Part shown: in pieces, positions 24,816 to 63,395 of the stretch | How the letters are laid out: each line of letters begins with the position of its first letter | Numbering within the stretch: position 1 is the stretch's first letter | Assembly (NCBI RefSeq): GCF_000003815.2 | Contig: NC_049991.1 | Span: 18,566,037-18,630,036, forward strand | DNA: 64,000 bases | Origin: Branchiostoma floridae | Lineage: Eukaryota; Chordata; Leptocardii; Amphioxiformes; Branchiostomatidae | Direction of reading: 5' to 3' | Program-made: the position numbers and the translations under genes | Notes under the pieces: model-generated | Database searches by the model: none | Seen by the model: the letters and a program-made list of their open reading frames with translations, nothing else | Told to the model about the DNA's origin: nothing

Positions 24816-26738
24816 TTAATGTGAACAGCTTTGTGCGTTGATCATTATATCGTCAACAATCCATAACAAATAAAGTCTTCGATCTCATTAGGGTAGAATT
24901 ATGTCTCCAACGAGAAGCACGTCCTGCTATAGTGGATACAGTATGGGAGAATCTATAAGCAAACACCGTTGTTAGCACAACAGCACGGTTAATTTCAATA
25001 GATGTTTGGTCAACCTTTCAGGACTTCGACAAAGAAAAACATACAAGTTGTTTGTGTGGTGCGTTTATTTGTGTACGATTACAAAATAATGGGTTGTTTT
25101 GGAGTCCGGATCCGTCAAACAGAAAATGTTGCCTGAAGAAGTTGTTACTTTGATCAACTGCTGGTCGTTCAAAGCATTAATTTTAGATGGAGTGTTCCGT
25201 ATTTTGACATGTGTAAGATGTTGTAATGTATACACTATAGGCCTTCCCGTTAGAATATAGTCAAGTGTAACTTAACAAACGCCAGACATTCGCAATGAGT
25301 AACGTAGTGTTCCAGTATCTTGACACATTTGTTAAGTTGGAAAATGTTGCTCCAAGAAGCCATTACTAAAATAAGGCGTTTAAGACGCGAACATTGGTAG
25401 ACAATGCGCTTTTTAGTTGTTATTTAGTCAAATGCAACTTAGCAACTGTCAGACACTGGTAAATGAGTAATGTAGTGTTTGCCTCTTTTTGACACATTCA
25501 TTTATTGCATATTTGTCATCAAGATTTTTAAGATAGATATAAACAAATGCTGAGACATGTACGAAAAAACAAGGACGCAACTTCTGATACCTGCACTCTA
25601 TCGATAAGTCGTCACTAAGTTTTAAGTTTTTTTTCTGTAATCTGTAAAAGTTATTTCATTACCTTAATCCTACATTAGCGAGAGAAGTGAGTTGATTGTG
25701 TATCAGCGTGTTAAAACATGGCGACCGCACCATGGCAACGGAGTCCAGCGTTGCTATGGATCAAGTGTCCGGCCTCCATCAAAAATCGCTTTATCAAACA
25801 GCGTTCTCGCCTTACAACGTAGATGATGAGTCACTGCCATGGTTGCTTCGTCTTGTAGGAAAACATTAAGAACTTTTTTGGGGCCACAATTTCCTCAGGA
25901 TTATCTAAATTCTTTCTTCTTCACCTAACCCAGGTCGATTTCAGGTAAGAAAACAATCAGATAGAAGCTTTAGAGCGAGAGAGTTTTGAATGGGTCTCCC
26001 ACGTTAATCATGCCCATGCTGTGTTTGTTTTGCGGCGCGTAAGCCATGTGTACACACTTCTGAGCAGAGGGGTTATTTTGAAAGGAGAAACACTCAAAGG
26101 TTGATGCGAATAAGACAGATTTGTTGAAAACTAAGCAGGACTCGAAGACTTGGTTTGCAAATAACAATGATGACATTACATATTGTTTTACCTTCATTGT
26201 CGCTATGTTATGTTTTGCCGTCGGTTATCAATATCGTTCAAGGGTTCATATAGATTTTTCTTACCTCATAAAAAGTGGATGAAATTGATACGTCTTCTAA
26301 GCAACTTTGGAATAAGAAAATTCCAATTCGTACACCAATATCCATAAGAGGTCTAAAATAAAAGTTCTACACTACTAGGCAACTAACCGTGCTACCATTC
26401 TTAGTAGTGAACGCTGGCTCAATCCCATCGCTTGCTAACGGTGGTAACCAAGTAAAATTATAGCACGAACCAGCATTTACTACAGAGGATGGTACCTCAT
26501 TTGCTTGGCTGTACAATCATCCAAGGTTACCCAACTAGCCATTGGCCACTGTTAAGGGTTAACGTAATAGATATTGATAACAAAGCATAAAGTATAGGTA
26601 TATAGCCAAACATTACCAAAATAACATTATTATTTTTTACAATGTTCACAGTCTGATCTGTAAGCTGATACATTCTTCAAGCCACGCCCAGTGAAAGCGA
26701 ATAAGACTGACAAGTTCTCTGGGTGTGTCTTGCCGTAC

Positions 26739-40283: not shown

Positions 40284-40615
40284 CAATAAAAGAGCTGAAG
40301 ATTTGACGATGGATGTTTGGAAGCTTTTCCACATTCGGACTTGTGAGGAGTATCACGTCGACAACAGATGGCTGATCAGTAGACAGTAAGTACTTCACCT
40401 GTCGAGACCGAACCATGTACCATTATAGGGGTATGTCGGAATAACAACAATGGGGTGACAATTTGAGGTCGGTTTGTTTCCATAGTATACATAGCCATTT
40501 TGTTGTTGCACTTAAGTCTGCGAAAATTTGGCATAAAATTGGGCTTTGGGTTAAATTGAAAACTGACAGTGTCTGTAGTCAAATGTAAGATATTGTTTTT
40601 CGCCCAATTATTGTA

Positions 40616-41095
40616 TTGCTTTGTCTTCGTATTTATCTGCATAGAACACCTGTTGAATCCCTTCAGCTGACTGCATTTGAAAAACTGATTAAACCGAAGG
40701 CGGATTCCTGCGTAGTTCCTCGGGTCTGGAACGAAGACGCTTCTGGCGCGCTTCGTGAGCGGCGGTATCGCCGCGCGTCAAGCTCCACTACAATGCTAGA
40801 AGATCTGAAATGGAACAGTCTACAGAACAGAAGGAAGTCTGCCCGCCTTGGAATGTTGTATAAAATAAAACATAACGTTGTCTACACAGATGGGTTGAGG
40901 GGAAAACTACAGCCCGCCCCACCCCGAGCGAGACGTTCTCATGACAGGCAGTTGGTACAAACTGTCTGTAAGACACTCTACCGTAAGGCCTCCTTTTTGC
41001 CGCGTACTATCAGTGACTGGAACCTACTGCCACAAGTGGCGGTCGAAGCCATCACCATTGACACGTTCGTGTCAACGGTCTCCAAGCTGATGTGA
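40616..41095 (+). pseudogene. LINE reverse-transcriptase C-terminus
   Basis: The frame contains RRKSARLGMLYKIKHNVVYT, GLRGKLQPAPPRARRSHDRQ, LYRKASFLPRTISDWNLLPQ and VSTVSKLM before a stop. This is the standard ending of CR1/L2/jockey-type non-LTR reverse transcriptases. No catalytic domain lies upstream, so it is a 5'-truncated copy. Confidence 0.88.
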
Positions 41096-41490: not shown

Positions 41491-42439
41491 ATACAAGAAT
41501 GACGGATGATGTATCAGCAAATCAATCAATCTTTATTCAAATCAATATGCCGTACACAATTTAACAATGCCGTAATCTTTCACAATGCAGAAAAAGTCAC
41601 TTTTATATAACTAAAAGTCTTCAAATTTCCATACTTTTTTGTTCTTTCCCTAAAATGTTTTTATCTGTGATTATACAGTTTCATTTAGATACGATAATAC
41701 GTGTTAACATAATGTCAAAACAACATGTTTGCTGCCAAGGTACTTATAATGAAAACTTCCTCTGAGCAAGCCATTTCGAAGTGTAGCATGAACTGACGAG
41801 ACTTTGAATTTTAACGTTTTTCATTCAGACTTTTAAAAGTGCTTGGTCTGTTTTCGATGTTGTTTATTTCTTGCTGATATTTTTATACTTCTACTCTTTC
41901 TTCACAAGCTTTCATGCAATTTTAGTTAAGCACAAGCAATATTTACAAGCAGTAGTTTTAGTCTTCCCCGGTACTTTTGTTACATCGCCGTGGTGGTCAG
42001 GCTTGGGTGCCTCTAGGATCCTGTGCTCTATACGGACTGGGAATAGAGTGTTCTGTTCTTACACATAAGAGTTTTGTAGATGACCAAAATCTTAATACGA
42101 GACACATGTGATATCACTTGACATTAAGCTTCCTTTGTTAAGATCAACCATAACAATCATAACTGCCCTTTTAGGTATTCAAAATACAACATGGTACTCT
42201 ATCACACCTGTTGCTATTTGGGCACGTTTCAAATATATACTGTAACATTATTTAACAGAATAATTAAAGCATTCATTAAATATCTATAAAACTCACACAT
42301 GGCAAATATACTGTACAAAGTATTATCAGAGCAGTACCTCCTGTACTGATGGCAGAGGTGGGGACATCATGATACATATCATGGACTAAATCACTAAGAT
42401 CATGCATCATATTAAAACATATCAAACAGTCATGGTGGA

Positions 42440-43700
42440 GCGATCACTTTTGTCAACATTTTGCCATGAGTCCTGAGATGACCAGACGAAATTTTCATCC
42501 CCCAGGGGTCATAGAAATCTCATTGATCTTTCCTCCCATCATGGGAACAAACAGCTACTTTATATCCTTGACTTCCAATGAATTAAGTTCACGCAATATT
42601 TACAAGCAGTAGTTTGTCTTTCTGACCGATATTTCATCAAGTGACACAAGTATCATTGCAAAGTTATTTACAAGTTTCTTTGTTGAGCATAATTGCTATT
42701 GTCATCAACATCATCCAGTCATCATCATCTATTTTAGACAGTCGAAAATAGAACTTGGTGATCTAACACACCAAGTCCTAAATTTTCTTGCTATTTGAAA
42801 ATATTTCAAAGACCAACACACAATAAAAGTTTTGACATTTGGCATCTATAAGATGTCTGGACGTACGTAACCAAGAATATCTACTGATAACAGAAGTAAA
42901 CTCATCTTAGGTCTTGGACCAAGTTTTGACAAGCACAGTCACATAAACAAGCAAAAAAATTAAATGATCAATCTAACGTTATGTCATGGAAGGAACCTAC
43001 TCCCCATGGCTCCAGAGATGTCCACACCAAATTTTCATCCTTGAGTGCTCATTAATGAGCTTTCGTTTACATCATGGGAACAAAGGCATTTTTTATCATT
43101 GACTTTTGATGAATTAAGTTCATGAAATATTTACAAGCATTGGTTTGTCTAAAATCTCATCAAGTGACAAAAGTATCATATTCATTGCACAGTTATTTAC
43201 AGTTTTCTTTGTTAAGCATAATTGCTATCATCATCATCATCATCATCATCCAGTCATTATCATCTATTTTAGACAGTCAAAAACAGAACTTGGTGATTTA
43301 ACACAACAAGTCCTGAAAGTTCTTGCTACAAATATTTCAAACACCTACATGTACACGTGTACATAATGATAGGTAAATGTACTTAAACATAGACTTTTGA
43401 AAACCAGAACAATTACTGATAATAGAAGAGACACATCTTTGACCAAATTGATACTATTACACACATGAACACGCAAAAAATTCAGATCTGATGACAGACA
43501 CATTGCCTGGACTCCTAGACTTAATTGTTAAACATATCATACACAGAAATACACAAAAAAATTGATCGGTAATCATGTAGGGATCAGTTCAACATTCATT
43601 TTGTCACCCCTCCGTAGACGACCACACCACGCTAGTCTTGTGCTTTAATTGATGCCCATCAGGAGAACAAAGAGCTATCCTTGATTCTTAGTGTCAATTA
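42440..43700. repeat. Tandem repeat, two full and partial further copies of a 540-600 bp unit
   Basis: Shared landmarks: gatgaattaagttca, aatatttacaagca, catcaagtgaca, tttgttaagcataattgct, atctattttagacagtc, gaacttggtgat. Copies start near 42450 and 42990, with fragments at 41930 and 43590. The array lies directly after the Ulp1-PHD stop codon and may form its 3' UTR. Confidence 0.75.
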
Positions 43701-43730
43701 GTCGTTTGAACACGGCAGAACAGTTTTTTC

Positions 43731-44802
43731 TTACACGCCGCAGTAACCACATGCCAATTTCCCATCACTGAAATGGCTGACTGGCAGGCAGTTGACGTGA
43801 AAGATCCTCCGGCATGCCTTGCAATTCTGCATCCTTCCCAGACGCTCCCCCTGCTGGCAGTAGCAGACCAGTGAGATTTGCTGTGCCTTGGTTGGACCAA
43901 CCTTCCTGCAGCTGGTCTTACGTGGAAATGGCGTGAGTTTGCCTTGTTCGAAGCACGTCTCCAAATGGCTCCTCATCTTCTTAACATCATACACAACCCT
44001 GCTCACGTCTTGCCCCTCTGCGATGTCCACAGCCCAGGCGATGGCAAACAGCCCGCAATCAAAGACGTTCTCCTGACGCTGTATGTCCGGTAAGATGACG
44101 GTTAGGACTTTTCTGGCTTGGTCAGCAAACGCGGCATATGACTGGTAAAGTTGGATTTGCAGAGATGGAGTCATGGCAACTCCGAGGCTGTCATACAGGC
44201 GCACCTGTCCGCCTGCACAAGATGATAGGACCCAGTGCTGGCTGCCGTTGTGGTGGATTTGTAGCCCTGTTCCTGTAATCTTGGCAAATCCGTCTTCACA
44301 GTGACCAACTGCAGGCGCCTCCAGTCCTTGGAGTGCCGGGTACTGGCGGCGAAGCAGAATCTGGACAGCCTGGATGTGGTTGTCTGTCAGCATCTCGCCG
44401 AATGCCAGAGTCGCCTTGTCATGGATGCTCAACTTGACACTTGGCCACTCCACTTTACGCTCCTCGGTGTGACGAACAAGAACAACCTGAGCAAAACGAA
44501 CTCTCCTGGTTGATGTCTTGTCACTTTTCCCACCTTTAGATAGGACAGACTTTATTTTTCTGACTTGTTTGGTTTGGTGGCTTTCCGGGGTGTCCTCCTC
44601 TTTTGCCGGGGACCTGGATGTCACCACCACTGGAGTCTTGCTCTCGGAGTGGGTCCCTTGACTGCCACTGTCTGTGCAGATGGTCGGGGAGGCAGCGCGG
44701 ACCTTGATGACGCGGTGGCGAAGTTCCACTGCTGCAGCATCGGGGGCATCTCTGACAGTAGGAACAAACTCCGGCTCTGCAGGGAGGTCTGCATCCTTCA
44801 TC
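43731..44802 (-). CDS. Ulp1-like cysteine protease with C-terminal PHD finger
   Basis: The frame has 356 residues. The protease part (about 120-300) resembles C48 (Ulp1/SENP) enzymes, which remove SUMO-like modifiers: His189 in QHWVLSS, Asp204 in RLYDSLG, a Gln at 241 or 243 in DIQRQENV, and Cys249 in FDCGLFAIA. The tail (313-354) has CYC-x11-C-x2-C-x4-H-x2-C-x12-C-x2-C, the C4HC3 pattern of a PHD finger. Residues 1-120 are polar and probably disordered. Such Ulp1-PHD proteins are, from memory, expanded in cnidarians and amphioxus, often with transposons. ATG at 44799-44801 is preceded by a good acceptor (tatcctcacag|g), so the frame may be a last exon rather than a complete gene. Phase fits the polycystin donor at 45605. 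Confidence 0.8.
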
Positions 44803-44924
44803 CTGTGAGGATAGAAGTGTTAACGCTTCTGAAGTTGTGCTGTCCAGAAACATAAAAACACTCGCACACTCACTCGCACACTCACACACATGCACACACA
44901 CAAACACACAAACGAACAAACACA

Positions 44925-44992
44925 CAGTAGGAACAAACTCCGGCTCTGCAGGGAGGTCTGCATCCTTGATCCTGTGAAGATGGAAGTGTTAA
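44925..44992 (-). repeat. Duplicate of the start of the Ulp1-PHD exon
   Basis: About 65 bp around the exon start (acceptor plus codons for KDADLPAEPEFVPTV) are repeated about 170 bp upstream. In this copy ATG became ATC, the acceptor is kept (atcttcacag|gatc), and the frame then runs into a GT-rich microsatellite. Confidence 0.85.
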
Positions 44993-45296
44993 TTAGCTAA
45001 TATCTTTAGAACCTCTTGTGTAGAGTGATTGCATCAACAATTATCACCATCAACTTTCCAGATTATCCTGGCTAGAACTAGAGTGTCACAAGCTCATACC
45101 TTTGCCACAAGCTCTACTAGTCGAAAATCATAACCAAAGCATATCCAGAACACAAGCTATAAAAACTGGAAGCTCCCCTGCATTACCATAGAGTACCACA
45201 AGGAGGCCAATTATCAAAGTTGACTTTTGTTTTCCCAACCTTACTCATACTCAACCTAATATCATACAGATCCATCCACAGCTTTTGCTCTCTGGA

Positions 45297-45431
45297 ATCA
45301 TACAAACACGCACACACACAGCACACACACACTCACACACATAATATGCACACACACACACTCACACACGCATGGCACACAGACACACACAGACACAGAC
45401 ACACACATACACTCACACACACGCACGCGTG

Positions 45432-45470
<39 letters not shown>

Positions 45471-45475
45471 CCAAA
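45297..45475. repeat. CA/TG microsatellite
   Basis: About 180 bp of (CA)n with interruptions and a gcgcgc core. A shorter relative lies at 44865-44925. Confidence 0.95.
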
Positions 45476-45604
45476 CAGTGCCATAGACATAAACCAATTG
45501 GTGAATGTAATTGTTGTGCCAGGAAAATCACTCCTTGCATATTTGAGGACATCTGATCAATCTTGACTGGTATTTCTGTATTTCTTGTAAGATGTTGTAC
45601 TTAC

Positions 45605-48600
45605 TTAAGGTTGAAGAGCGACTGTCTCTTCAGCCACAGTTTCTCCACTTTAATCTCGACCTCGATCAGGCTGTCATGTAGAGTGTCCATGGAGTCGTCA
45701 TCTGAGCAGATGTAAAATTAATGTAGTTTGTAAGTTTTCTTTAGTACGTACCACATAAAATAAACAGTGATTTGATCACAATGTGCAAATTAAAATGTGA
45801 AGCCCAGCTAGCTGGCAATGGGCCAAGGATGCCAAAGAGTAAGTTAGTAAGGATAAACAGGATATGAAATAACTTTGGACCTTACTCCTGGCCATCCTTT
45901 CATACCTGCGCATGCATTACAGCCCAATACAATGATTAAGCAAAGGTGCTGGGTTCAAGTCCCACACTCGTACCTAATATATACTAAAATGGACTGTCAA
46001 CTCAACTAGAAAGAGCTAATGCAGTAATATCAGGCACTTATTTCAATAACCTGTGACTTTGCAAAATTATCAAGACCCAAAAGATGATAGACTTTATTGT
46101 TTGGTTGTGCATTGTCTAGATGTAAAAAAAAAAAACATGCACATGAACCTGTGGCTGGCGCTTTCCAGAAGCCGAAGAAGGCCGTGAAGCGTTCCCACAA
46201 CCCCTGGATGAAGTACCGGTCCTCTTCAGGCATGTCGTGGTTCCGCATCTCGGGAAGTGCGCTGTCGATGATCGCCATGGCGATGTTCATCAGCACCAGG
46301 AAGATGATGCTGATGAAAGCGAAGAAGAAGATGGGGCCGAGGATGGGGGCTGCCTCCTGTAGCTGGTAGTAGTAGAAGTTTCCAAGAGACATCTGGAACA
46401 ATGTGGAGAAGGACTTGCTGATGGAGCTGAAAGATAACAAAAAATCAAATCGTTGTAATGAGGACAATTGGCGTGTTTTACTTCCAAGCACTCAGAATCC
46501 ATGTCCTTTTGTTAAAACGAGACATCATGATATTAAATTTTTTACCCACATTGATACAAGAATATGTTTTCTTACCTGTACTCTGTCACAGTAAGGCCGA
46601 ACATGAGATATGCGTAGACTCCGAAAGCTGACATCCAGAAGAAAAAGTAGAAGATGAAGGAGGAGAACTCTCCCGCCATCCCTCGGAACACGGACATCAG
46701 CTTGGCGAGGAACGGGTTGAACCTCAACAGCCGGAGGAGCTTCATCATGTTGACAAACGCCAAGAAGGCCAGGAACCAGCCGTAAACCTGGCTTATGTTG
46801 ACCGCAGATCGGAAATGGTGGACTTGATCTTTAAGAGAACAGTATTGCATATCATAAGTACAGTGTTAAATAACCACCTTGTAATACAATCAACTTGGCA
46901 TGCTTTCCAACATTGACAACATTGACATTGAGGGTTAAAGTGAAATTTTCATGAACATGTAAATACTACAGTAACTGTAACAATGCTTTTGCTGCTTTTG
47001 CATTGTGTTACAAATGTACCTTTCTCTTCCTTGATCGCCACCAGAGCCCTGGAGCTGTAGATTGCCTTAAAGCCATACAAGGCAATGACAATCAATGCCA
47101 AGAAGAAGTTGAAGATTTCAATAATATTCCATGCCCCCTTCAGGTAGGCCAAGCCGACTGTGCGTGCAGTTTTCACCTCTCTCCACAGAGTGTAGAGGAG
47201 AATGATGACATAAATGATTTCCAACAAGGCGTAGATGTACCCGATTGTACCAGGCCGTTGATGGAGTCGGAAGGTCTGCACGTGGTGACGGGAGAAAACT
47301 CCGGCCATCTCGGAGAATTCAAACACAACCGTCAGCGATGTGAACAGATCAACGTTTCCATTGTAGAGCATCGCTTCCAAGAAGATGACCCTCGTGTGCT
47401 TGTCGATCCAACGGTTTGCCATCAGGTCTGCTAGGATGCTGCGCATCTCGTCTGCTGATTTTCCAAGGTGCAGACCAAAGCCGTCTCCCCAATAGTGCGT
47501 TGTCACACCGTAGATGGGGAGACTGGGGTCGTTATTGGGGAGGTAGATCCATCCAGGGGCTGCTGATTCCACAGCTGATGTATTCCTGACCCTTTTCCAC
47601 CCCTCCTCAAATGCTCCGGTCTCCTTGGCGTGTTCATCATACGGTGATGAACATTCCTCAAACAAGTGCTGAATTGCCACAGGCACCACGCACGGCCCTA
47701 GTATGACAGGAAAAGAAAACATAATATACAAGTCAGTCGCATTCCCTTCACTTTTTTTAGGTACAAAATGTAGATGTCTTTCAAACATAGATCAATCCCG
47801 AATAGTTAGATAATGATCCTTTGAATTTCTTGAACGTAGCTTTCCACACTATTTCTTTTGGTATGGTAAGGCTGCTTGATTGTGGAATAACATTTGCAGC
47901 TGCCATGTAAGCCCTCGGCAAGTGTTCCATGAAAGTAGTTCCACCCACCTGGCTTTACACGGCCTTGGATCAGGCTAGGTGGGTAGACCAGGACTGTCTG
48001 CATGTCAGCTGTGAAGACCTTCTCAAACCAGCGGGGCTTGTCGCCATTGTAGGAAGTCTCTGGGTAGAAGCTCTGCAGAGCGGTCTCATTCAGCCAGGAC
48101 CAGAAGGTGAGAGGATCATTTACCTGTGGAGAAACAACGCCATGTGAGTTTATTTATTCCACAAAGTAATTGTAGATTCCTCATCGAGGGTGCAAATAAT
48201 GAATGTTATTATGATAATAATAAAAATCACTATCTATTTGTGTCAAGATGGCTTTCCACTGGCTTCAAATGTTTTCTAAAGTTTCACAGTCTACAGTTGC
48301 CGGGTAGACCCAGGAAACCTTGGCTGGAGTATGTCAGGAAAGACATCAAGGTGTACTGCGGCCTTGACAGTGTGAGCCCGCTAAACAGGGCCGCTTGGAA
48401 GCTGCCAACGCTAGAATCAGGGATCTTAGCAGCAAAATAATCAAATACTGGATTACTATGTAACAGTACTACATACTACTACCACTGCTGCCCACCACTG
48501 TGTCAGGGACCCACACAGCAGTTTAATCATTAAATACTTGATTCTACTATTACTACTACTGCATAATGTCTGATCAGATATATGTAGAGATTTAAAGATC

Positions 48601-51600
48601 TATCCCAATGCAAGGACCTGGTGTAAGGAACTCACGTCGTCCACAGACTGCAGGAAGGTGTTGGTTGTGCTCAGTGTCTGATGGAAACCCTCTGTGGTGT
48701 TGTGGTGCTCAATGGCGATGCTGAGCACGAGCAGGAGGAAACAGCAGAACCACGCGATGTCCCACACGGTTTCCCCAAATCTCCTGTCCCTGCGCTGCCT
48801 CATTCTTGCTTGTTTGATGTTGGCAAGGGACCTCATTGAAAGTCGCTCCATCTTCCTCCTCATGCGAAATGCATCGCCTTTAGTAAGCAAGAAAAATATG
48901 AAGAAGTCTATATGGTCTATGTGTATTTGTTTGAGGGTAAAAAATTACTCACAACCTGGACAAAAGACTGAAGCACGAAGAAATAAGAACAATTCAGAAT
49001 GCAGGGTATGGCTGGGAGCACACTGAAACTACACAAAATGGCTTTCTTTAAACAGCTTCGAACATGTGGTAACAAATTGTGCACAGTTTACTTGTTCGCG
49101 GTAATAGTTCTTTTCCACAAACTGATGAGCTGACACTTACAGTTGAAGTCTGTCTCCCTTTGTGAAGACACCATGCTAGCTTTAATCAGAGCGGGGCCCC
49201 GCTTCTTTTTAAACATCTTCTTGACGGCTTGCGTCTTACCAACAAAGCAAGTCACGATGGTGAGGAACAATATCTGTAAGATAAAAGCATTAGTTGGTGG
49301 AGTTTCTGACAGGTTGTGACTTCCGCATACAAAATGTTGTGACTAGGTCAGGTTCTATTAAACTAGCAAGAAATTGTGTTGATGGCCAGATACCTTATAC
49401 CACATCATGCAGCATACATTAATTCATGATTCCACCAGGTGAGGTGCCATAATAACGCCACCTCAAAAAACGTTGTTATAGAGGCCTTCTCAAGATTGTT
49501 TTCAACACCTAAATATCTGAATTGTATTACATTTAAGACATGTAACATTCGGTGTTCAAGACAACCTTAGTAAAACCTCTATACTTGTCTAACGTTTTTT
49601 TTTCAGGTGGAGGTATCATGGCTCCTGGTGGAATTATGAGAGTCGATGTTACAAGAAAATTCAACAGAGAACATGTCCTAATACCTTTCCTGGTTGCATG
49701 ACGAAGATATCCGCCCAAAATGCGATGAAGTACACAGACAGCCACCTCTCGGATTTGTCCTTGCCCCAGTACATGCTGTACAGCACCGTGAAGACAGCTG
49801 ACCCCACGGCAGACAGCACCACGAGCACCCAGGCAACGTAATTGCACCAGTGTGGCAGGCCCTTGGCTTGTCCTTGCTGCGTGGGTGCCTCTGGTGTGTC
49901 ACCTGTCTCCATGTCTCTGACCCGCCGGTCGCCCTTGTTGCTGGGTCGGCTGTACTGGAACAGCAGGACTATGGCCATGATGACGGGAAGGCAGGTGAGG
50001 CTGGCCATGATTCCCGTGTAGACTCCATTCAGGGTGAAGGAGAATGGCCCCAGGTTGACGGCCTGCACAACCTGGGTTTTTATTTCGTCCCTTAGCCACA
50101 TGGCGCTGGACACCATGGACACAAGGAGGAGACTCAGGCAGCAGCCGAGCCTCTGGCTGCGGGTGAACGTGCCACCTGGAAAGGAAACACAATTGACACA
50201 TTAATCAGCAAAACTAGTTGCTATCAAATGGAAGCAACAAAACCAGCAACAGACATTCATCAACCGTAACAGTTGCTCAAATTTTGTTCAGTAAAACTTC
50301 AGACAATCGTTGATATACATGATTGTATAGTCCGTTTAGATCCATCTAAGATAAAGATAAAGTGCAGAAATAGCAAAATAACTGTTACCTTCAGGTGTGA
50401 AAGCGACGGACAAAAAGAGGTGCTCCTCTATCAGATTACTCCGCAGAATTGCCGGGAACAGGAACCCGAAGGATCGCAGATCCTGCTCAGTGGCGACAGG
50501 AAAGGTCTTCACCACCTGCCCGTCCCCGCGGTCGGCTGCCAGCCACTCATTGCAGAAGAAATAGGACCTGAAGTTCCAACAAAGAGAAAACTGACCTATA
50601 GTGACATATCATAAAATATTGTGTAATTTCAGTCCCTCAATGACTCTGTGTTAATCTTTTATTATGTTTTCCCTGGTGAATAGATAAACAGACAAACAAA
50701 AAGGACCCTAGGCTTGTATAATCATGATTGGATGAAACTAAGACAGCCCCAAAAGCTCAAATTAACTCACGTTTTGCCAGTGGTGACATCCTCCACTGCT
50801 GCTCTGTCCACGTGCCACGATGCACGGCTCCCCTCCCCACTGTTGTCGTGCATGAGCTGCAGCTGCTCCACGTTACCCAGCTGTTCCACTATGCTGAAGG
50901 TCAGGGTCACCTGGCTGCCCTGGGTAAAAACCTAAAACAGCAACAAAATTCCACCTGTTAGGAACTGTCGTAAATGATTGTACTATAATTGAAGTCTTCA
51001 GTGGATACAGCAGCAGCAAAATAAATGATTGAGGATACACTTTCAGGGGAAAGTTGGGCGATGGAATGATTACATTAGAGGCCATTGCTAAATTTGACAT
51101 TCTAACCTTCTCAGCGATGTTGACCACTCTCACATCGGAGTTTGCGGCGTCTCCGACAAGCTTGAAGGTAACGGTAGACTCTGTCCCAGCATGCCTAGCT
51201 GCACCTGTCCAGACGAGAAGGCGGTACAGGTAGCCGTTCTGAAGGTCGTCCAACCTTACAGCATGATGTAACTGTAACAAAGTGTGAAAAAATAGACCAT
51301 AACAATAAATGTTCACATAATGTGATGATAACAACATGACACTGACATTTCCCAGCACACACAGTATAGTCTAATACTGCATGAAGACTGGGTACTTTCG
51401 GTAAGTCGCAAGTAATTGGTGAATCACACTTCGTGACCCTGCCCTTGTTGGTTAAGATTTATGAAGCACTAAATTGTGATAGACATCGCTCTTTTGGGCT
51501 AGCCTGCGAGCCCTTTTTATACTTATTTGTCTTTTCCTGTCAAACCAAGGCCACACCTATTTTATTTGATGTTTCTCGGACTTCCCGACACTATTTTTCC

Positions 51601-54600
51601 GATTTGAAAAAAAAAAAAATTTCAAATGGATGGCCACACCTCATGTTGACAAGATTTCACTGCCTCTCCTTTGATTCTCAAATTATAGATGTTCCTCAAA
51701 TTCCAGTAGCTGTACATGCCTATTTTGGATGGTACATTTATCATTTTTCTTCAAACTTTGTACTTTGCTAACAGGGACCCTCTAAATGCTAAAATGTTTT
51801 CATTTCTGTTGTGGAACTTGAGTAAGCCCCTCGATCTCTCCAACCCCTTACGTTTTGCAAAAGTTTTTAAACCGACCGACCCAATTTTTTTTTTTTAAAT
51901 CCGAGAAACAACAAATAAAATTGGTGTGGCCTTATGAATCGATAAATTTTTTAATGAATACTGGAAAACTCTAAGACTTACTCTAACTGACCTGTGGGAT
52001 ACCCTTTATCCATTGTATATGTACGTATTGTAAACAGGGCAATTTGGAGATACAATTAGGTAGCCGGATGGTGGTTTCAGATTGCAATTATTTCAAAACA
52101 TTGCTACAGTTTGAAACCAATATATTCTTTTACTTGATATCCCTAAATACCCTGTTTTAAAATGCAACGGATATAGATTACTCCACAGATGTAGGTGATT
52201 TCATCATTATGATAACAGCGTAATAAAATCATNNNNNNNNNNNNNNNNNNNNNNNNNNNNNNNNNNNNNNNNNNNNNNNNNNNNNNNNNNNNNNNNNNNN
52301 NNNNNNNNNNNNNNNNNNNNNNNNNNNNNNNNNNNNNNNNNNNNNNNNNNNNNNNNNNNNNNNNNNNNNNNNNNNNNNNNNNNNNNNNNNNNNNNNNNNN
52401 NNNNNNNNNNNNNNNNNNNNNNNNNNNNNNNNNNNNNNNNNNNNNNNNNNNNNNNNNNNNNNNNNNNNNNNNNNNNNNNNNNNNNNNNNNNNNNNNNNNN
52501 NNNNNNNNNNNNNNNNNNNNNNNNNNNNNNNNNNNNNNNNNNNNNNNNNNNNNNNNNNNNNNNNNNNNNNNNNNNNNNNNNNNNNNNNNNNNNNNNNNNN
52601 NNNNNNNNNNNNNNNNNNNNNNNNNNNNNNNNNNNNNNNNNNNNNNNNNNNNNNNNNNNNNNNNNNNNNNNNNNNNNNNNNNNNNNNNNNNNNNNNNNNN
52701 NNNNNNNNNNNNNNNNNNNNNNNNNNNNNNNNNNNNNNNNNNNNNNNNNNNNNNNNNNNNNNNNNNNNNNNNNNNNNNNNNNNNNNNNNNNNNNNNNNNN
52801 NNNNNNNNNNNNNNNNNNNNNNNNNNNNNNNNNNNNNNNNNNNNNNNNNNNNNNNNNNNNNNNNNNNNNNNNNNNNNNNNGTACCTTCCTTACCTTTCTT
52901 TTATCTTTACGCTCAGCGATCTTGATCACGGCTGATGTCAACGAGAACAGACAGAGCGCCACAATGATGGTTGTCAAAACGGCACCGTTGTCCACCAAAT
53001 CACTGAAATTCAAGGCCCCGAAGTCAAGGGTGTTTGGCGGAGTGGCGAAGTCAAGTCCGAAGGCCGTCAGATGGTTGCAGTGGCAGATGGTGCTGGTAAT
53101 GGTGGACTGCTCGCTTATCTGTGGAAAGCAGGAATGAGAGTCAAGTTGTTAGGATCACATTTTGCTGGTACAAACACTGGTTATTTTATTTATTGAAAGA
53201 CGCCAGCAACCTTGAGAGTCTGTTCACTGCTTTAGGCATTATTGATATACAGTCAAACCTGTCTATAGTGGCCACTCAAGGGACCGGACAAATTATAGAC
53301 AGGTGGCCTCTGTATAGAGGTGGCAACTTGTAGATAAAATACCCAAGGGACCGACAAAAAGTGGCCACTATGGACAGGTGGCCCCTCTGTAGAGGTGGCC
53401 CCTAATACAGGTTTGACTGTACAGTCAAACCTGTCAATAGTGGCCACTCAAGGGACCGGACAAATGTGGCCACTATAGACAGGTGGCCTCTGTATAGAGG
53501 TGGCAACTTGTAGATAAAATACCCAAGGGACCGACAAAAAGTGGCCACTATGGACAGGTGGCCCCTCTGTAGAGGTGGCCCCTAATACAGGTTTGACTGT
53601 ATTAAGAATATATTCAAGCCATGGATTTGAATTGCTTTTCTTGGCATATTGGCCTCTTTTCACTATAGCACAGATTGCGAACATTATATTGCAATTTTAG
53701 TTGTTTCGCCAAAACAAACATTTGACAACATTAACATCCAAAACTTTGTCTTTTGTATGTGGCCATTAAAAAAGTATATTGAGTAAACGTAGGTCATTAC
53801 AATTGTAGTTCCTGTGAATACTGAAAAGTAATTTAAAAGTTCTCCTGTAAATGTCAAGAAATGTACACACCGTGCAGCCGTCAGTCCTCCAGTCTTCCTG
53901 GGTCTCGCTCCAGTAGATGCAGCCCAAACGGACCCACTGGATCCGGTAGGCATAGAAGTCATTGCTGTCTGACTCCTTCATGTCAGTTTTCGTTTCCATG
54001 TCACACTCGGTCACTGGACCTGACAAAAGGAAGTTCGCACAGGTTCTGATAAGTTTATAACTACTGAGATTTTGCCAGTGATTCCTGTTGTCAACATCAA
54101 AAATGCAACATGTATCTTATTTTAAAGATATTCCAAACAAACAAACAAACAAACAAAAGCACAACATTGCTCAGTGGAACATCAACACTTTCTATTAAGT
54201 ATGTGAAATTCACATTATATCTTACACTAGACTGAGTGTAACAGTTTAGATTCTGATAAGTTTATAACTACAGAGATGTCGCCAGTCTGACTCCTATCTT
54301 CACTGTGCGCTCATTGGTTGATCCTGAATCACATGATTCTCACAACCATATAAGTACAAGGGATGATCACCCTACTGCCTCTTGTTGGATCCATCCGCAA
54401 CGCCGAGGTCGCCTGGCGATGGACGACCAGGTCTCCGCCGCTTGCGGTTCCACGACCACGTTTCTCGCCGCCGGGCGGGTTTTGTGCCAGAGGAGCACGC
54501 AGTGTTGCAGCCTAGACTCCAGCTTACCAGTTGGAGGAAGACAACTTCTGAGGTTTGGCTGTGCAGCAAGTAACGGCGGGGCGAGGGATCCAGAAGCTCC

Positions 54601-57600
54601 GGCGGACCTTGGGGCAGACCCTCTCCACGCATCGAAAGGACGGAAGAGTCCTAGTGTTCTACCTAGTGGGGTGAAATGTCAGGACGGTGGATATACGGCA
54701 GGTTTGGGTGGAAAATGCGGTAACATACGTTGTGGTATTTGTCGAATTCTGCTTTTCTGGGAACAATGGTCTGGGTGCCGTTTGTTCACGTGTTGTTTTG
54801 CATATCTTTGGGTCGAGCTTTCGCCCGGTTTGCACGTGCTTTATTTGCATTTGTTTGCTTTTAGTTGACTGGGTATTTTGTCGATATGCACACAGTACAG
54901 TGAGGCAGCATAGACTCCAGTTTGACAGGTCGAAGACAACTTCTGAGGTTCAGCTGTGCAGCAAGTAACGGCGGGGCGATGGAACCAGAAGCTCCGGCAG
55001 ACCTTGGGCAGGCCATCTCCACGCAGCGAAAGGACGGACGAGTCCCACATAGTGGGGGGAAAACTTCAGGATGGCTGAGATATGGCAGGTTTGGGTGGAA
55101 AATGCGGTAACGTACGTTGTTGTATGTGTCGAATTCTGTTTTTCTGGGACACTCGTTTGGGTGTCGTTGTTCACGTGTTGTTTTGCATATCTTTGGTGTC
55201 GGGTTTTCTCCCGGTTTTTACTGCTTGATTTGCATTTGTTTGCCTTAGTTGACTGGGTGGGATTTTCATTATCTTTTGTTTNNNNNNNNNNNNNNNNNNN
55301 NNNNNNNNNNNNNNNNNNNNNNNNNNNNNNNNNNNNNNNNNNNNNNNNNNNNNNNNNNNNNNNNNNNNNNNNNNNNNNNNNAGGAAGGGAGGGAAACTCG
55401 TGACAGGATCCCCTTTTGACCACGTGAACAGCGTGCCAGCGTGAATGCTCGAGTGGGGTTTAGCTGCTTTACTGTAGGTTCAGAATTTGTGGTCTGAACG
55501 TGTTGTTTTCTTAGCAGCTCAGCCCGGATTCCAGCTCTCCCAGGCCGAGGAAGGCGACTACCACAGCGCGACTGAGATGTAGCAAGCTCTGACAGACTTT
55601 TGGCGGCCTCTTCACATATTGAAAGGGCGGAAGAGTCCTACCTGGCGGGTCGAAACATCGGATGTTAAAGATACAGCAGGTTTGGGTGGAAAATGCGGTA
55701 ACAAACGTTTGTGTTTTTTGTCCAATTATGTTTTCCTGGGAACAATGGTTTGGGGTGGCTAATGTGTACACGTGTTGTTTTGCATATCTTTGGTGTCGGG
55801 CTTTCGCTCGGTTCGCTCGTGCTTGATTTGCATTTGCTTTGTCTTTAGTTGATACTTGTGTTCTAAACGTGTTGTTTTCTTAGCAGATCAGCCCGGTTTC
55901 CAGCTCTCCTGTGCCGAGGAAGGTGACTACCACATCGCGACCGAGGTGCAGCAAGCTGCGACAGAGCGTTGGAGCCAGCAAGCCGAGCATTCCCAACACA
56001 TACGGCAGTTCTTCGCGGCATCGACACTAGACGACAGCCGTCACGGAGCGCACGGCTTTGGTTTTTTCAGGGAGGCGTGCACGTTTTTGGTGACATCGAT
56101 ATTTTGTCTTTATGTCTGTTGTTGCTGTTTTGAAGTGTTTGGTTTCCCTCTAATTAGGGATATTTTCTTTTACCGTTGTTGTTTGTAAAGTTTTGCTTGT
56201 GTTGACACAGTGACGGCGACACAGACCTGGACTATTAAGGAATGCAGTCGTCTAAGGAACCACAGCCTGGCAGCAGCGTTGGCAGTTTCTATCGCTGAGG
56301 GGAGTCTCCTTAAATCACGAGGAAAGAAGGTGTGTTTTGGTCCGTTTTGTACTATATTTTGGAGAAAACAGCGCATGTACGGATCGTTCTCGGTCGCTCC
56401 TGCTTGGTGTTTGATGGTTCTTTTATACCGTGAGAACACCGAGTAGCGAGGTCCGGAGAGGTTTCGTGTTGGCGTGTTTTCTTTTCAGCTGGTGAAACGG
56501 CGCGCATGTGCGGGCCTTTCATCGTTTGTGCTTGGTGTTTGGTGCACTGTTAGTGTGCGATCACTGAGTAACGTTGATCAGAGAGTTTTTCCGCACATGG
56601 CGGGTGTTTTCATGGGGGTGAAACGGCGCGCATGTGCGGGCCTCCGATCGTTGGTGCTTGGTGTTTGATGCACTGTTAGGGTGCGATCACTGAGTAGCGT
56701 TGATCGGAGAGTCTTTCCGCACATGGCGGGTGTTTTCACAGAAATGAAACGGCGCGCATGTGCGGGCTTCTGACTGTGCTCGGTGTTTGCTGCACTGTTA
56801 GTGTGCGATCACTGAGTAGCGTTGATCAGAGAGTCTTTCCGCACATGGCGGGTGTTTTCATAGCCATAGGAATGGAACGGCGCGCATGTGCGGGCCTCTG
56901 ATGGTTGGTGCTCGGTGTTTGCTGCACTGTTAGTGTGCAATCACTGAGTAGCGTTGATCAGAGCGTCTTTCCGCACATGGCGGGTGTTTTCACAGAAATG
57001 AAACGGCGCGCATGTGCGGGCTTCTGATTGTGCTCGGTGTTGACTGCACTGTTAGTGTGCGATCACTGAGTAGCGTGGATCAGAGAGTCTTTCCGTACAT
57101 GGCGGGTGTTTTCACAGAAATGAAACGACGTGCATGTGCGGGCTTCTGAACGTTGGTGCCCGGTGTTTGTTGCACTGTTAGTGTGCGATCACTGAGTAGC
57201 GTTGATCAGAGAGTCTTTCCGCACATTGTGGGTGTTTTCACAGAAATGAAACGACGTGCATGTTCGGGCTTCTGAACGTTGGTGCCCGGTGTTTGTTGCA
57301 CTGTTAGTGTGCGATCACTGAGTAGCGTTGATCAGAGAGTCTTTCCGCACATGGCGGGTGTTTTCACAGAAATGAAACGACGTGCATGTGCGGGCTTCTG
57401 ATCGTTGGTACTTCAACCTGGTGTTTGTTGCACTGTTAGTGTGCGATCACTGAGTAGCGTTGATCAGAGAGTTTTTCCGCACATGGTGGGTGTTTTCACA
57501 GGAATGAAACGACGTGCATGTGCGGGCTTCTGATTGTACTCGGTGTTGGCTGCACAGTTAGTGTGCGATCATTGAGTAGCGTTGATCGGAGAGTCTTTCC

Positions 57601-60600
57601 GCACATGGCGGGGGTTTTCACAGAAATGAAACGGTGCGCATGTGCGGGCTTCTGATTGTGCTCGGTGTTTGTTGCACTGTTAGTGTGCGATCACTGAGTA
57701 GCGTTGATCAGAGAGTCTTTCCGCACATGGCGGGTGTTTTCACAGGAATGAAACGGCGCGTATGTGCGGGCCTCCGATTGTGCTCGGTGTTTGTTGCACT
57801 GTTACTGTGTGCGATCACTGAGTAGCGTTGATCGGAGAGTCTTTCCGCATATGGCGGCTGTTTTCACAGGAATGAAACGGCGCGCATGTGCGGGCTTCTG
57901 ATTGTGCTCGGTGTTTGCTGCACTGTTAGTGTGCGATCACTGAGTAGCGTTGATCAGAGAGTCTTTCCGTACATGGCGGGTGTTTTCACAGAAATGAAAC
58001 GACGTGCATGTGCGGGCTTCTGAACGTTGGTGCCCGGTGTTTGTTGCACTGTTAGTGTGCGATCACTGAGTAGCGTTGATCAGAGAGTCTTTCCGCACAT
58101 GGCGGGTGTTTTCACAGAAATGAAACGACGTGCATGTGCGGGCTTCTGATCATTGGTACTTGGTGTTTGTTGCACTGTTAGTGTGCGATCACTGAGTAGC
58201 GTTGATCAGAGAGTTTTTCCGCACATGGTGGGTGTTTTCACAGGAATGAAACGACGTGGATGTGCGGGCTTCTGATTGTACTCGGTGTTGGCTGCACAGT
58301 TAGTGTGCGATCATGGAGTAGCGTTGATCGGAGAGTCTTTCCGCACATGGCGGGGGGTTTTCACAGAAATGAAACGGTGCGCATGTGCGGGCCTCCGATT
58401 GTGCTCGGTGTTTGTTGCACTGTTACTGTGTGCGATCACTGAGTAGCGTTGATCGGAGAGTCTTTCCGCATATGGCGGCTGTTTTCACAGGAATGAAGCG
58501 ACGCGCAGGTGCGAGCCTCTAATTGTTGGTGCTCGGTGTTTGCTGCACTGTTAGGGTGCGATCACTGAGTAGCATTGATCAGAGAGTCTTTCCGCACATT
58601 GTGGGTGTTTGACAGGAATGAAATGGCGTGTATGTGCGGGCTTCCGATTGTGCTTGGTGTTTGTTGCACTGTTAGTGTGCGATCAATGAGTAAAGTTGGT
58701 CAGAGTCTTTCAGCGCATGCCGGGTGTTTTCATAGGGGTGAAATGGCGCGCATGGGCGGGCCTCTGGTCATTTGTGCTCGGTGTTTGTTGCACTGTTAGG
58801 GTGCGATTACTGAGTAGCGTTGATCAGAGAGTTTTCCCGCGAATGGCAGGTGTGTTCATAGGGAAAAAAGGGCATGCAGGTGGCAGGTGAGGGCCTCTGA
58901 TCGTTTGTGCTTGGTGTTTCTTGCACTGTTAGTGTGCGATCACTGAGTAGCGGTGCCGTTGGTCAGAGAGTATTTCCGCACTTGGCGGGTGTTTTGACAA
59001 GAAGAAAAGGGAACGCATGTTTGGGCCGCTGATCGGCTGTGCTTGGTGTTTGCTGCATGGTTAGTGTGAGTTCACTGAGTGGCGTTGTTCAGAGAGTCTT
59101 TCCGCACGTGGCGGGTGTTTCCAGAGTCCGGAAAGAAAATGGCACGCATGTGCGGGCCACTGATTGTTTGTGCTTGGTGTTTGCTGCTCTGTTAGTATGC
59201 GATCACTGAGTAGCGTTGATCAGAGAGTTTTTCCGCGCATGACGGGTGTTTCATAGGAAGAAGATGTCATGCGAGTTTCTAGATCTGGTCGTTTGTGCTT
59301 GGTATTGGCTGCACGGTTGATAGTGTGCAATTGCTGAGTAGCGTTGGTCAGAGAGTCTGATCGCACACGGCGGGTGTTTTCACAGGGAGAAAATGGTACG
59401 CGTGTGCGGGCTGCTGATGGTGCTGGGCGTTGGCTGCATTGTTAGTGGGTGCTTAGTGGGACTCATAGGAGTAGCGTGAGTCAGAGAGTCTGCGTCCTTT
59501 GCACATAGCGGGCGTTTTCACAGAAAGGAAATGGCGCGCATGTGTGGGTTTCTGGTCGTTCGTGCGTCGTGTTTGCTGCACTCAGTGTTAGTGTGCGATC
59601 ACTGCGTGACTAGTGGCGGTCAGGGAGCCTCTAATCGCGTACGATGGGAGTTTCATGCTGGGAAACGGCACTCGTGTATNNNNNNNNNNNNNNNNNNNNN
59701 NNNNNNNNNNNNNNNNNNNNNNNNNNNNNNNNNNNNNNNNNNNNNNNNNNNNNNNNNNNNNNNNNNNNNNNNNNNNNNNGATAAGAGAGGGTGTTTGAAG
59801 TTACGTGAGAAGGTGAGGTAGAGAGAAAATGGAGAATAAGGGAGGGGGTAAGAGATGTGAAATGTTGAAGTAGAGAGAACTTCAATGATAAGGAAGGGGG
59901 TAAAGTATAGGAGTTAGAGAATGTGTAGATTTATGAAGTAACAAGTTAGCATGGGGATAAGGTGAAGGTAAGCGACTTCGGCGCTATCCCCATAACTTAA
60001 TCACATATGAAGGATGATCCAATGAGTGCGCAGTGTGGATAGGGAACTATCTTCACTGTGCGCTCATTGGTTGATCCTGAATCACATGATTCTCACAACC
60101 ATATAAGTACAAGGGATGATCACCCTACTGCCTCTTGTTGGATCCATCCGCAACGCCGAGGAGCGCGTGGTGAGGTCGACCCAGGAAGTAACAGCTGGAG
60201 GGAGATTCGATGGGAAACAGGGTTTTCCCGAGGAGGGGATTTATCAGAAACCGAACCACCAACCCACCCTCCTTTATATTGGTGTACAGCTGGCAAGGGT
60301 TCCGTCTTCGCCGCGCGACTTCGGCGCTATCCCCATAACTTAATCACATATGAAGGATGATCCAATGAGTGCGCAGTGTGGATAGGAAACTGTTGTCAAC
60401 ATCATAAATGGATGATGTATTTTACTTCAAAGAGATTTGAAACAATCCAAATCACAACAGTGCACAGTGGGAAATCAATACTCTAAAAACTCAACACTTT
60501 CTGTAAGAAAATACCAAAAAAATCTCTAAAACATTTCAAACAAAATATACTTTTCCATCACAACAAAACAAAGTTTAATTATGATATCATCATTGACAGT

Positions 60601-63395
60601 ACAATATCACTTCATCTGATACAGATATTCACCTCAGTCTTATATTCTGTCAATCAGTCCAATTTTTATGAAAATACTCACCAAGTACTTGGACCTTGAT
60701 GTAGTAATCCGCAGGACCATCTCCTCCCAGGATGAATATCGTTGCCTCTGTCTTCTCTGTGTTTGTGTCTTCATCGCCACTGAGAGATTTCATCAAGGCA
60801 CACTCCTCAGGTAGGATGTACGTCTCCGTGGACATGTTGTAGTTTTGGTCATCAGGGCGGCCGCCGTACCTGCCCCACACGCCGTAAACCACGCTTGTGT
60901 TCAGTGGGGTGATGGTGACCAGGAATCCTTCTGCGGTGCTGTTGAGCTTTAGCAAATGGTAGCTTGAACTTTGGTTTCCTGGTGCAGGGAAGGTGATGGT
61001 TGTCGTCGCTGGTTTGTTTCCAGAGCCGCCCGGAATGGTGATGTTAAAGTCTTCAGTCAGGTTGTTGAAGGCCACGGGGATGTCGTTCTGCAGGAGTGAC
61101 AGTTCCATAACAGACGAACGTGCCTGGTACTCCCCGCGCCCCCAGGTGAAGGGGTTCTGTTGAAACTGCGTCAACTGATAAATAACAAAATCTTAGACTA
61201 GATAATTGACTTTTGAAACAAGTGGCCAGTATCAAAATTATTCTACTACTTACATATTCTATTCGTATTGGTAACTGTATTCAGGAATTTGTACCTCACT
61301 CATTCACGAAAAACATGATATATTTAATATGTAGATGAGTGAGTTGTAACAGGAACCTTCTTCACAATGACCTTATGTAATATGTAAAAATGCTGAGCAA
61401 TAACTCACGTAACTGTATCAACTTTCATATTGAGTCATATTTTTCAATGTGTCAATAGATAAATTATAAAGTTGGATAAAATTTATTGTATCAATTGTAA
61501 AACAGTTACTGCAACGTTGTTACTAACAGTTAATAAAAAATCTAATGACAAAAAATCAAAGTTGGAAAACAGACAAAAACAATCCTTAAAGAAAATATCA
61601 AGTTTAATTATTGAAATCATCACAAATTGTGACCGCGTGGCGCAGTGGTCTAAGCATGTGCGGATCTGCACCGAGAGGTTGCGGGTTCAAATCCGCCTGT
61701 CGTGCCACCGATCTTGTGCCCTTGGGAAAGGCACTTTACACGACTTTCCTCACTTTACTCAGGTGAGAGTGAGTACCTGGCTTTGGCTGGGGCCGTCCCT
61801 CGGATAGGACGTTAAATGGAGGTCCCGTGTATGGGGAGAACCACACCCCATGCACGTTAAAGAACCCCCACACGTGCGATGGTGCTATGTGGATGGAGCA
61901 AACCATTCTGTCTGGAGTTGGTGATTCACTACAAATCACCCGGACGGAGGCCTGGCGAACCTTCGTGTCGTATCAGCCACATGGTGATTACATCATTCAC
62001 CATGCCCCGGAGAGGAGATAGGCGCCGCCAGGGGACTAAAATGCCTATTGATACAGCACAACATGTTGTGCTGCCCCTACGGCTGATTAAAAGGCTATGG
62101 GACGAATGAAAAATGAAATGATCATCACAAATATAATATATATAAACGAAGAGAGACATTATTCGTTAATGATAAACCAGGACATGACATGACTCGTACC
62201 CTTATAGCGACGTTGTGCGGTGTATAGTCCGGGAACAGCGCTGCTTTAGATGGAAGATGAAAGCTCCCATCCTCCATCTGCACGACCCGGCCTCCAAACT
62301 GGTCACCCCAGACCCTCTCCGCACGGAGAGCAACCCCTCCCCTCTCGATGGTGACTGCCGGGGCTCCTGGACTCATGGAGCCCATAATGGCGTCGAACAG
62401 ACCATCCAGGACCCGGCGGCTTTCCTGGACATTTCTTCGTTTCTGTAAGTAACCGTAAAGACAATATTATGGATGAGCTACACCAGCTAATATGATCCAG
62501 GTATTTCCTCAATAACACATTCTATTAGACAAGACGTAGCACGCAGTATTTGTGCAATTTGTTCTGAAGAAAAAAGCTGTTTTATGAGAGATGCGAATCA
62601 TTTAAAAGGCAGGAAAAGAGTAAAATGTACTTTTGTTTCGTTTTAAAGACATATAGATATTTTAGTACATAGTAAGGTTAATTTGTTTATGTGATAGTAC
62701 GTAGTTCTGAAATCTTTTAAGTATGTGGGATTGAATGTTTCTAAGTTTAAGCCACACCATCACACATCTTTGGTGCATATATTGCATACTTCAGAAGCGC
62801 ATGTTTTGTTCAACATTAAATACAAGTCAAGTCAAGTCATGTACACATTAATATGTTAAGAAAATCAAGGAAGAACAGCTTGCAATGCATGTGATTTAAA
62901 TCACGATCTACGATGGAAAATGGTCTCTAACAAAAAACTAAAAATTAACTTCAAGCATCAAACGAAGCATAATGACTTTTTGTTACCTCGGCTTGTTTCT
63001 CCTCTTCCCTTTCTTCTGCCTTTTCAAGGCGCTCCTTTGGAGAGAGACTCTGGTCTTCCTCGAGATCAGATGCAAGCTTCCCATCATCCTCTTGTGTATC
63101 TCTCTCTGGTTCCTCAAGCAGAGAACCGACCGACTCCACCAGAGCTGCAGTAGAACAGAAGCAAATGTTACCAAAGTAATGAACACAGGAAACCAACGGA
63201 CTCCTCCAGAACTAATATGCATGATTAACACATGCACAATAAGACAATACAGATGTGGACAACTGAAATAGTTAGTACTGCAGAGTAATAGTTGGATTAC
63301 TTACATCCTCCCACGGACTGGACAGTGGCCGGGTCAGACATGTCCAGTTTGTCCAGGTTGCTGGTGATGGACTTCAAAACACCTACGGCGATGTC
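45605..63395 (-). CDS. Polycystin-1-like receptor-channel protein, C-terminal part
   Basis: Exons in transcript order: 63395-63305, 63144-62987, 62442-62200, 61174-60682, 54019-53871, 53118-52894, 51271-51107, 50931-50771, 50567-50389, 50175-49685, 49273-49141, 48877-48636, 48123-47949, 47697-47020, 46828-46576, 46426-46149, 45701-45605. All phases fit, giving about 1,403 residues. The N-terminal part seen is extracellular, REJ/GAIN-like. A GPS site (CHCNHLTAFG, with the HL|T triad) and TM1 (exon 53118-52894) come next. A PLAT domain follows (GYLYRLLVWTG, LQLMHDNSGEGSRASWHV, SYFFCNEWLAADRGDG), then multiple helices, the polycystin (TOP) domain (PGWIYLPNNDPSLPIYGVTT), the channel helices and a C-terminal coil (IEVEIKVEKLWLKRQSLF). 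More exons lie above 63395, and one may be lost in the gap at 52233-52880. PKD1L1, PKD1L2 and PKD1 types cannot be separated here. Confidence 0.92.
48290..48440 (+). pseudogene. LINE reverse-transcriptase C-terminal relic
   Basis: Reads LPGRPRKPWLEYVRKDIKVY, then NRAAWKLPTLES. The GRPRKPWLEYVRKD phrase is typical of LINE reverse-transcriptase ends. It lies antisense in a polycystin intron. Confidence 0.7.
52233..52880. other. Assembly gap (648 N)
   Basis: A run of N within the intron between the GPS/TM1 exon and the first PLAT exon. A short linker exon could be missing. Confidence 1.
53250..53599. mobile_element. Two MITEs inserted end to end, TA target sites
   Basis: Copies at 53250-53419 and 53422-53599, each with ends cagtcaaacctgtc and acaggtttgactg, flanked by TA and sharing the middle TA. 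Inside are palindromic gtggccacta and gaggtggcc motifs. Tc1/mariner-type features. Confidence 0.92.
54040..54293. repeat. Intron duplication split by the large insertion
   Basis: The phrase ttctgataagtttataacta is at 54051 and again at 54252. The sequence following the first copy (ctgttgtcaacatcaaaaat) continues the second only at 60390 (ctgttgtcaacatcataaat), after 6.1 kb of inserted DNA. This shows the insertion is younger than the duplication. Confidence 0.8.
55282..55381. other. Assembly gap (100 N)
   Basis: A run of 100 N inside the 5.7-kb element. Confidence 1.
56490..59650. repeat. Minisatellite of 122-132 bp units, about 25 copies
   Basis: Each unit contains gcactgttagtgtgcgatca, ctgagtagcgttgatcagag, agtctttccgcacatggcgg and gaaacggcgcgcatgtgcgg. 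Units are closest in the middle and degrade toward the 59.6-kb end, where a gap begins. The short open frames here only repeat the unit. Confidence 0.92.
59680..59779. other. Assembly gap (100 N)
   Basis: A run of 100 N at the end of the minisatellite. Confidence 1.
60047..60385. mobile_element. Short (339-bp) relative of the 5.7-kb element, inserted next to it
   Basis: Its first 117 bp match 54294-54410 almost exactly, and its last 70 bp match 59970-60042. It is therefore an internally deleted copy, four bases (ggaa) from the large one. Confidence 0.88.
61628..62120 (+). repeat. Full-length tRNA-derived SINE with 12-bp target duplication
   Basis: The head gaccgcgtggcgcagtggtc and tgcgggttcaaatccgcc has A and B boxes and nearly folds as a tRNA. 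The centre has cttgtgcccttgggaaagg; the body has cgtccctcggataggacgtt, aaatggaggtcccgtg and cacgttaaagaaccccc. The tail is gaatgaaaaatgaaatg. The duplication atcatcacaaat is at 61616-61627 and 62121-62132. Confidence 0.93.

Follow-up and report, generated by a model that had tools for sequence, protein, structure and literature searches.

A PKD1-like polycystin gene of Branchiostoma floridae may be spliced in frame to a Ulp1-PHD-like exon with a duplicated acceptor

Does a polycystin channel gene of the lancelet Branchiostoma floridae run in frame into a downstream exon for a Ulp1-like protease and a PHD-like zinc finger? The question is raised by a 64,000-nucleotide stretch of contig NC_049991.1 (assembly GCF_000003815.2, positions 18,566,037 to 18,630,036), hereafter the window. 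On its minus strand, the last readable polycystin exon ends at 45605 and is followed at 44801 by the start of a 356-codon open reading frame (ORF). If the donor at 45605 were spliced to the acceptor at 44802, the polycystin transcript would have the Ulp1-PHD ORF as its 3'-terminal exon and would encode a PKD1-like channel whose cytosolic tail carries a C48-type protease-like domain and a PHD. Judged from the sequence, this in-frame splicing is to us an evenly balanced proposition; this and all other gradings of probability below are our own judgement. We see the fusion as a lead of fair quality; the preliminary description of the locus needs one clear correction, namely that the acceptor has a twin.

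The upstream gene is PKD1-like, with GPS, PLAT, polycystin and channel domains. We recognized 17 readable exons, from 63395 down to 45605, the frames of which chained without stops on both sides of a gap of Ns. The exons were chosen by eye from the sequence. Six exons before the gap (52894-63395, 453 residues) carried a GPS motif (PF01825, E = 3.8e-11). Ten exons after it (46149-51271, from exon 51271-51107 to exon 46426-46149) carried PLAT (E = 5.1e-13), Polycystin_dom (E = 1.6e-33) and PKD_channel (E = 5.3e-29) domains, in the usual order; all four matches were above the Pfam cut-offs. In a structure-sequence search, the channel part matched solved chains of polycystin-2 (PKD2), PKD2L1, PKD1L3 and polycystin-1 (PKD1). 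The best of these alignments stopped short of the last polycystin exon (45605-45701, 97 nt) and are silent on the cytosolic tail which it encodes. This exon was open in a single frame of the three; it is entered in phase 1 and left in phase 2.

At its end the exon reads TTAA/GTAAGT, and the same bases, when unspliced, read AAG TAA. The preliminary description had pointed out this overlap of a stop with a donor, and also that the exon from the acceptor at 44802 enters the Ulp1-PHD frame in phase. Both points were borne out, the second as phase 2 to phase 2, and so was its length of about 1,760 residues for the joined reading in the window (453 + 1,307, with the N gap inside). The AAG TAA is not odd in itself, because any phase-2 exon ending in AA before GTAAGT shows the same. 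For a real TAA stop to fall in a G-TAA-GT context by chance, we estimated from the window base composition ~1.3% per TAA stop. Nine acceptors scoring at least 7 were found from 45600 to 40001, and only the one at 44802 opened a long frame in this phase, with 357 codons to the next stop vs 7 to 145 from the other eight.

The 802 nt between the two coding parts (44803-45604, minus strand) were TG-rich and non-coding in all three frames, with 11-13 stops each. This stretch bears on the possibility of two neighbouring genes. In that case the stop of the polycystin would be the TAA at 45605 or lie in an unrecognised exon. The Ulp1-PHD protein, translated from the ATG at 44801, would belong to a separate, probably transposon-derived gene, either with a promoter of its own within the 802-nt gap or with a small exon in the 5' untranslated region (UTR). 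We hold this to be possible, if somewhat doubtful. Against it stand the complete donor motif around the TAA and the phase match, which would have to be a 1-in-3 coincidence. A motif scan of the minus strand found no AATAAA or ATTAAA in the gap; this says little, because only ~0.8 are expected by composition, and the weaker poly(A) variants AATACA (45582) and AAGAAA (45586) were present. Farther downstream, 82 nt behind the ORF stop, an ATTAAA (43644-43649, minus strand) is a candidate poly(A) signal. In favor of separate genes, the Ulp1-PHD frame begins with an ATG and runs uninterrupted to its stop.

The ORF itself (43731-44801, minus strand, stop at 43733-43731) is in phase from 45605. When the 1,301-bp region was resampled 2,000 times at first order, the longest stop-free run had a mean of 118 and a maximum of 300 codons. 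Because no run in the resamples was as long, the frame is real, beyond chance. The coding signal was uneven along the ORF, with 0.18 bits per codon in the protease part, 0.125 in the PHD part and 0.035 in the first 112 residues. For these 112 residues another frame scored higher (0.079), and even so they lay above the level of the introns (161 windows, mean -0.32, standard deviation 0.16, maximum 0.129). The first third of the ORF is thus weakly marked as coding. No second copy of the ORF was found in the window, where the one other hit below E = 0.65 was a 16-residue start in a duplicated stretch described below.

The Ulp1/C48-like region (43902-44456, minus strand) had His189, Asp204, Gln243 and Cys249 in the expected order. 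The PHD-like zinc finger (43734-43871, minus strand) was of the C4HC3 type, with Cys313, 315, 327 and 330, His335, and Cys338, 351 and 354. We take the His-Asp-Gln-Cys set and the eight zinc ligands to be the defining residues of C48 and PHD, respectively. In Pfam, the C48 model PF02902 stayed below its cut-off when the 180-aa region was queried alone (13.7 vs 20.7 bits, E = 0.056), and was absent from the matches up to E = 0.1 when the whole ORF was queried. The PHD models PF23011 (17.5 vs 27 bits) and PF00628 (13.8 vs 24 bits) were below their cut-offs as well. Against the PDB, up to E = 10, the catalytic part gave two matches, a "ULP_PROTEASE domain-containing protein" (E = 0.39) and OtDUB (E = 0.47). 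The two are near-identical in the aligned part, and the alignment spans the HWV and Q...DCG blocks. The best PDB match of the whole ORF was a CHD4 chain, over residues 307-354 (E = 0.14). NCBIfam gave a single sub-threshold match with an unrelated enzyme, and PHROGs gave no match. A single-sequence AlphaFold model of the ORF was too poor for use, with a mean predicted local distance difference test (pLDDT) score of 32.5. The Ulp1 and PHD labels of the preliminary description therefore hold in part: the catalytic and zinc residues are complete, and the Pfam matches are sub-threshold. The ORF is likely a Ulp1-like plus PHD-like protein, short of a passed family test.

No relative of the Ulp1-PHD protein was confirmed by tblastn, either in viral_contigs (13 pattern stretches) or in genome_contigs (33 stretches). 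Two viral_contigs loci with a degenerate DCGLFAIA pattern were rejected as unrelated. The L001 frame that holds the pattern is short and lacks all other parts of the domain. In L002 the frame with the pattern lies opposite a 502-aa frame that we read as DNA methyltransferase-like. Behind the Ulp1-PHD stop of the window, direct repeats were found at 42464-42818 and 43004-43349, with 77% identity over 368 aligned columns and register spacings of 522-540 bp.

The acceptor at 44802 had been described as the next one downstream of the polycystin donor. This was not borne out, for an equal-scoring acceptor precedes it at 44971. The two are part of a tandem duplication on the minus strand, in which 44924-44992 (copy 1) duplicates 44755-44823 (copy 2) over 69 nt, with 96% identity and an offset of 169 bp. 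The duplicate covers the intron end and the exon start, and a TG-rich stretch lies between the copies. Both acceptors scored 10.5 on a vertebrate-type splice matrix, the frequencies of which were written from recall. In copy 2 the exon starts at 44802 with G ATG. In copy 1 it starts at 44971, has ATC in place of the ATG, and misses the Ulp1 frame, since 169 bp do not make a whole number of codons. The Ulp1 frame is, moreover, shut by a stop just before 44819. Part of the transcripts may be spliced via 44971 instead, as a consequence of the duplicated intron end and exon start, and would then end in an unrelated tail of ~145 residues. A second splice out of the copy-1 exon could restore the frame: of its 26 GT sites, 10 rejoin 44802 in frame, the best with a score of 2.2, and the four GT donors scoring at least 3 (3.6 to 7.2) are all out of frame. 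Use of a weak in-frame donor is conceivable, since scores as low as 1.3 and 3.0 occur at two of the accepted polycystin donors. The 69-nt tandem copy may be genuine or polymorphic, or may have arisen from misassembly.

Several observations weigh against the in-frame junction, beginning with this twin. The acceptor at 44971 is the first one scoring at least 7 past the donor at 45605, and the exon opened by it runs for 145 codons in a different frame and then stops. Both facts, together with the weakness of the rejoining donors and the preference of the first 112 residues for another frame, would fit a polycystin transcript that runs through or past an untranslated Ulp1-PHD frame, either with the intron kept or by splicing to 44971 or to an acceptor farther on. 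The frame would then be a transposon relic in a 3' UTR or an intron. We consider this unlikely. With 356 stop-free codons and its catalytic and zinc residues kept, the frame is not an old relic, and even its first 112 residues score above introns.

For the splice sites the outcome depended on the matrix. On the vertebrate-type matrix, the donor at 45605 scored 6.9, mid-range among 1.3 to 11.2 for the other 16 donors, and 82 sites on the strand were as good; the acceptor at 44802 was strong, ranking third of 17, with 13 strand sites as good, itself counted. We also used matrices trained on the 16 other junctions of this gene, which are few sites and inherit the choice of exons by eye. These were less favorable: the donor ranked 14th of 17, and the acceptor 15th (per-column matrix) or 16th (pooled tract) of 17. 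By the pooled measure, 352 of the 3,638 AG sites on the strand equalled 44802. Resampled gaps held an acceptor as good as 44802 in 1,990 (pooled) and 1,999 (per-column) of 2,000 cases. The tract of 44802 had 12 pyrimidines in 16 positions, which is ordinary (9 to 14 in the others), and was C-richer than the other tracts of the gene. Splice-site strength thus does not decide for or against the junction.

Three properties of the ORF also weigh against the in-frame junction. The ATG is the first full codon after the acceptor at 44802, which fits a separate gene. The coding score of the whole ORF (0.13 bits per codon) is below that of every one of the 17 polycystin exons (0.15-0.64, their own sequence being included in the training), and this too favors two genes. 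An AATAAA at 44556 sits within the ORF. The phase match alone has a chance of 1 in 3, the same figure as given in the preliminary description.

The literature bears on the prior probability of such a fusion. In the parts of PMC6071037 on which we draw, the sampled domain differences among orthologues of four lancelet species were attributed to gene-prediction errors, for instance the spurious extension of a chordin by a PKD_channel domain. These errors favor two separate genes at our locus, and a fusion proposed in Branchiostoma from sequence only starts at a low prior. The same source gives 24% of sampled B. belcheri proteins with architectures lacking clear equivalents elsewhere, so that unusual lancelet architectures are not all to be dismissed (PMC6071037). 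The portion of PMC4284660 used here estimates the gain of domain pairs in lancelets at >10 per million years and sees a possible part of transposons in it.

Where could a Ulp1-PHD exon come from? According to the sections of PMC2836005 that we drew on, Ginger1 transposases carry Ulp1 or OTU as additional C-terminal domains, and the Ginger1-9_HM transposase, encoded by a gene with two introns, has Ulp1 together with PHD. The Ulp1 and PHD domains of Ginger1 and Mutator transposases were aligned there, Ulp1 was present in a lancelet Mutator, and some Ginger1 genes hold 1 to 4 introns; the one B. floridae Ginger1 in these sections is without extra C-terminal domains (PMC2836005). The preliminary description had called the fusion not known, and the Ulp1 and PHD pair itself was already published as transposase cargo (PMC2836005). 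Transposases with both modules would also suit a separate, transposon-derived gene. The exon was probably captured from a Ginger1- or Mutator-type transposase gene. An acceptor and a poly(A) site of its own may have come with it, since such transposase genes can end in Ulp1 and PHD and can hold introns. Capture of such an exon by an upstream host gene would account for the anatomy of the locus. No DDE or integrase domain was found beside the frame, neither in the non-coding 802-nt gap nor among the Pfam matches of the ORF up to E = 0.1, and a search for terminal inverted repeats of at least 20 nt in 42000-46200 gave just two weak pairs (27 nt at 70% and 25 nt at 76%). As element ends within 42000-46200, a transposase domain and a second copy in the window were not found, the transposon origin is something we infer.

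Both the in-frame splicing and any enzyme activity of the tail are predictions, and a specificity for SUMO is putative. We regard functional use of the protease-PHD tail as improbable. One could picture a working polycystin with a transposon-derived last exon that adds a deSUMOylase-like protease and a chromatin-reading PHD. The tail, if cut off as is reported for polycystin-1, could pass mechanical or chemical signals on from the membrane to chromatin, and the tandem acceptor could be a switch to an enzyme-free tail. To this picture, too, we give little credence. If the fusion is confirmed by transcripts, the locus would place an ion channel among the host-transposon fusions and would allow the signaling of a polycystin tail to the nucleus to be tested on a natural case. 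It would also argue against dismissing new lancelet domain combinations as mere annotation errors. If it is not, the locus would illustrate cleanly that a nonexistent fusion can be suggested by a matching phase and a donor that looks strong.

Other features were recognized in the window. A histone H2A-like gene with an intron lies on the minus strand in two exons (40060-39878 and 38504-38280). Its Pfam match with Histone_H2A_C had E = 1e-17, the core histone model was just under the cut-off, and its C-terminus ends in SQDY, which we take to be as in H2A.X. On the plus strand there were a leucine-rich-repeat coding frame (26664-27389, Pfam LRR_8, E = 7.4e-20), a PB1-domain-like frame just under the Pfam cut-off (18763-19215, E = 6.2e-05, 23.3 vs 23.6 bits), and a frame (40589-41095) that presumably resembles the reverse-transcriptase C-terminus of a CR1-like element and had no Pfam match up to E = 0.01. 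The stretch 15926-17235 was repeat-like; long open reading frames occurred there on either strand, in several of the frames.

Among known systems, the locus is closest in its channel part to polycystins of the PKD1/PKD1L type, whose order of GPS, PLAT, polycystin domain and PKD_channel it shows. We know of no protease or PHD on any polycystin tail, and of no enzyme on the cleaved polycystin-1 tail. A polycystin-Ulp1-PHD fusion was not described in the listed titles and abstract openings from the nearest literature, which is no proof of absence. With the Ginger1 and Mutator transposases the ORF shares Ulp1 and PHD, which are C-terminal extras there, and introns occur in some Ginger1 genes (PMC2836005). 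It differs from them in that no adjoining integrase/DDE domain and, within 42000-46200, no inverted repeats of element ends were found, and is likened to them by domain content only. SETMAR, CSB-PGBD3 and KRABINER, in the parts of PMC12062965 considered here, are alike in that a host gene takes a transposon-encoded part in frame. Theirs is gene regulation, whereas here a membrane channel would be the host of a protease-like and zinc-finger module. Membrane hosts as such would not be new, since the G-protein-coupled receptor (GPCR) is listed among the domains often co-occurring with transposable-element or viral domains (PMC12062965). Finally, the proposed tail, if cleaved, would be comparable with the cleaved C-terminal tail of polycystin-1, a fragment of which, according to the portion of PMC10502374 used here, can detach from the membrane and function in the nucleus.

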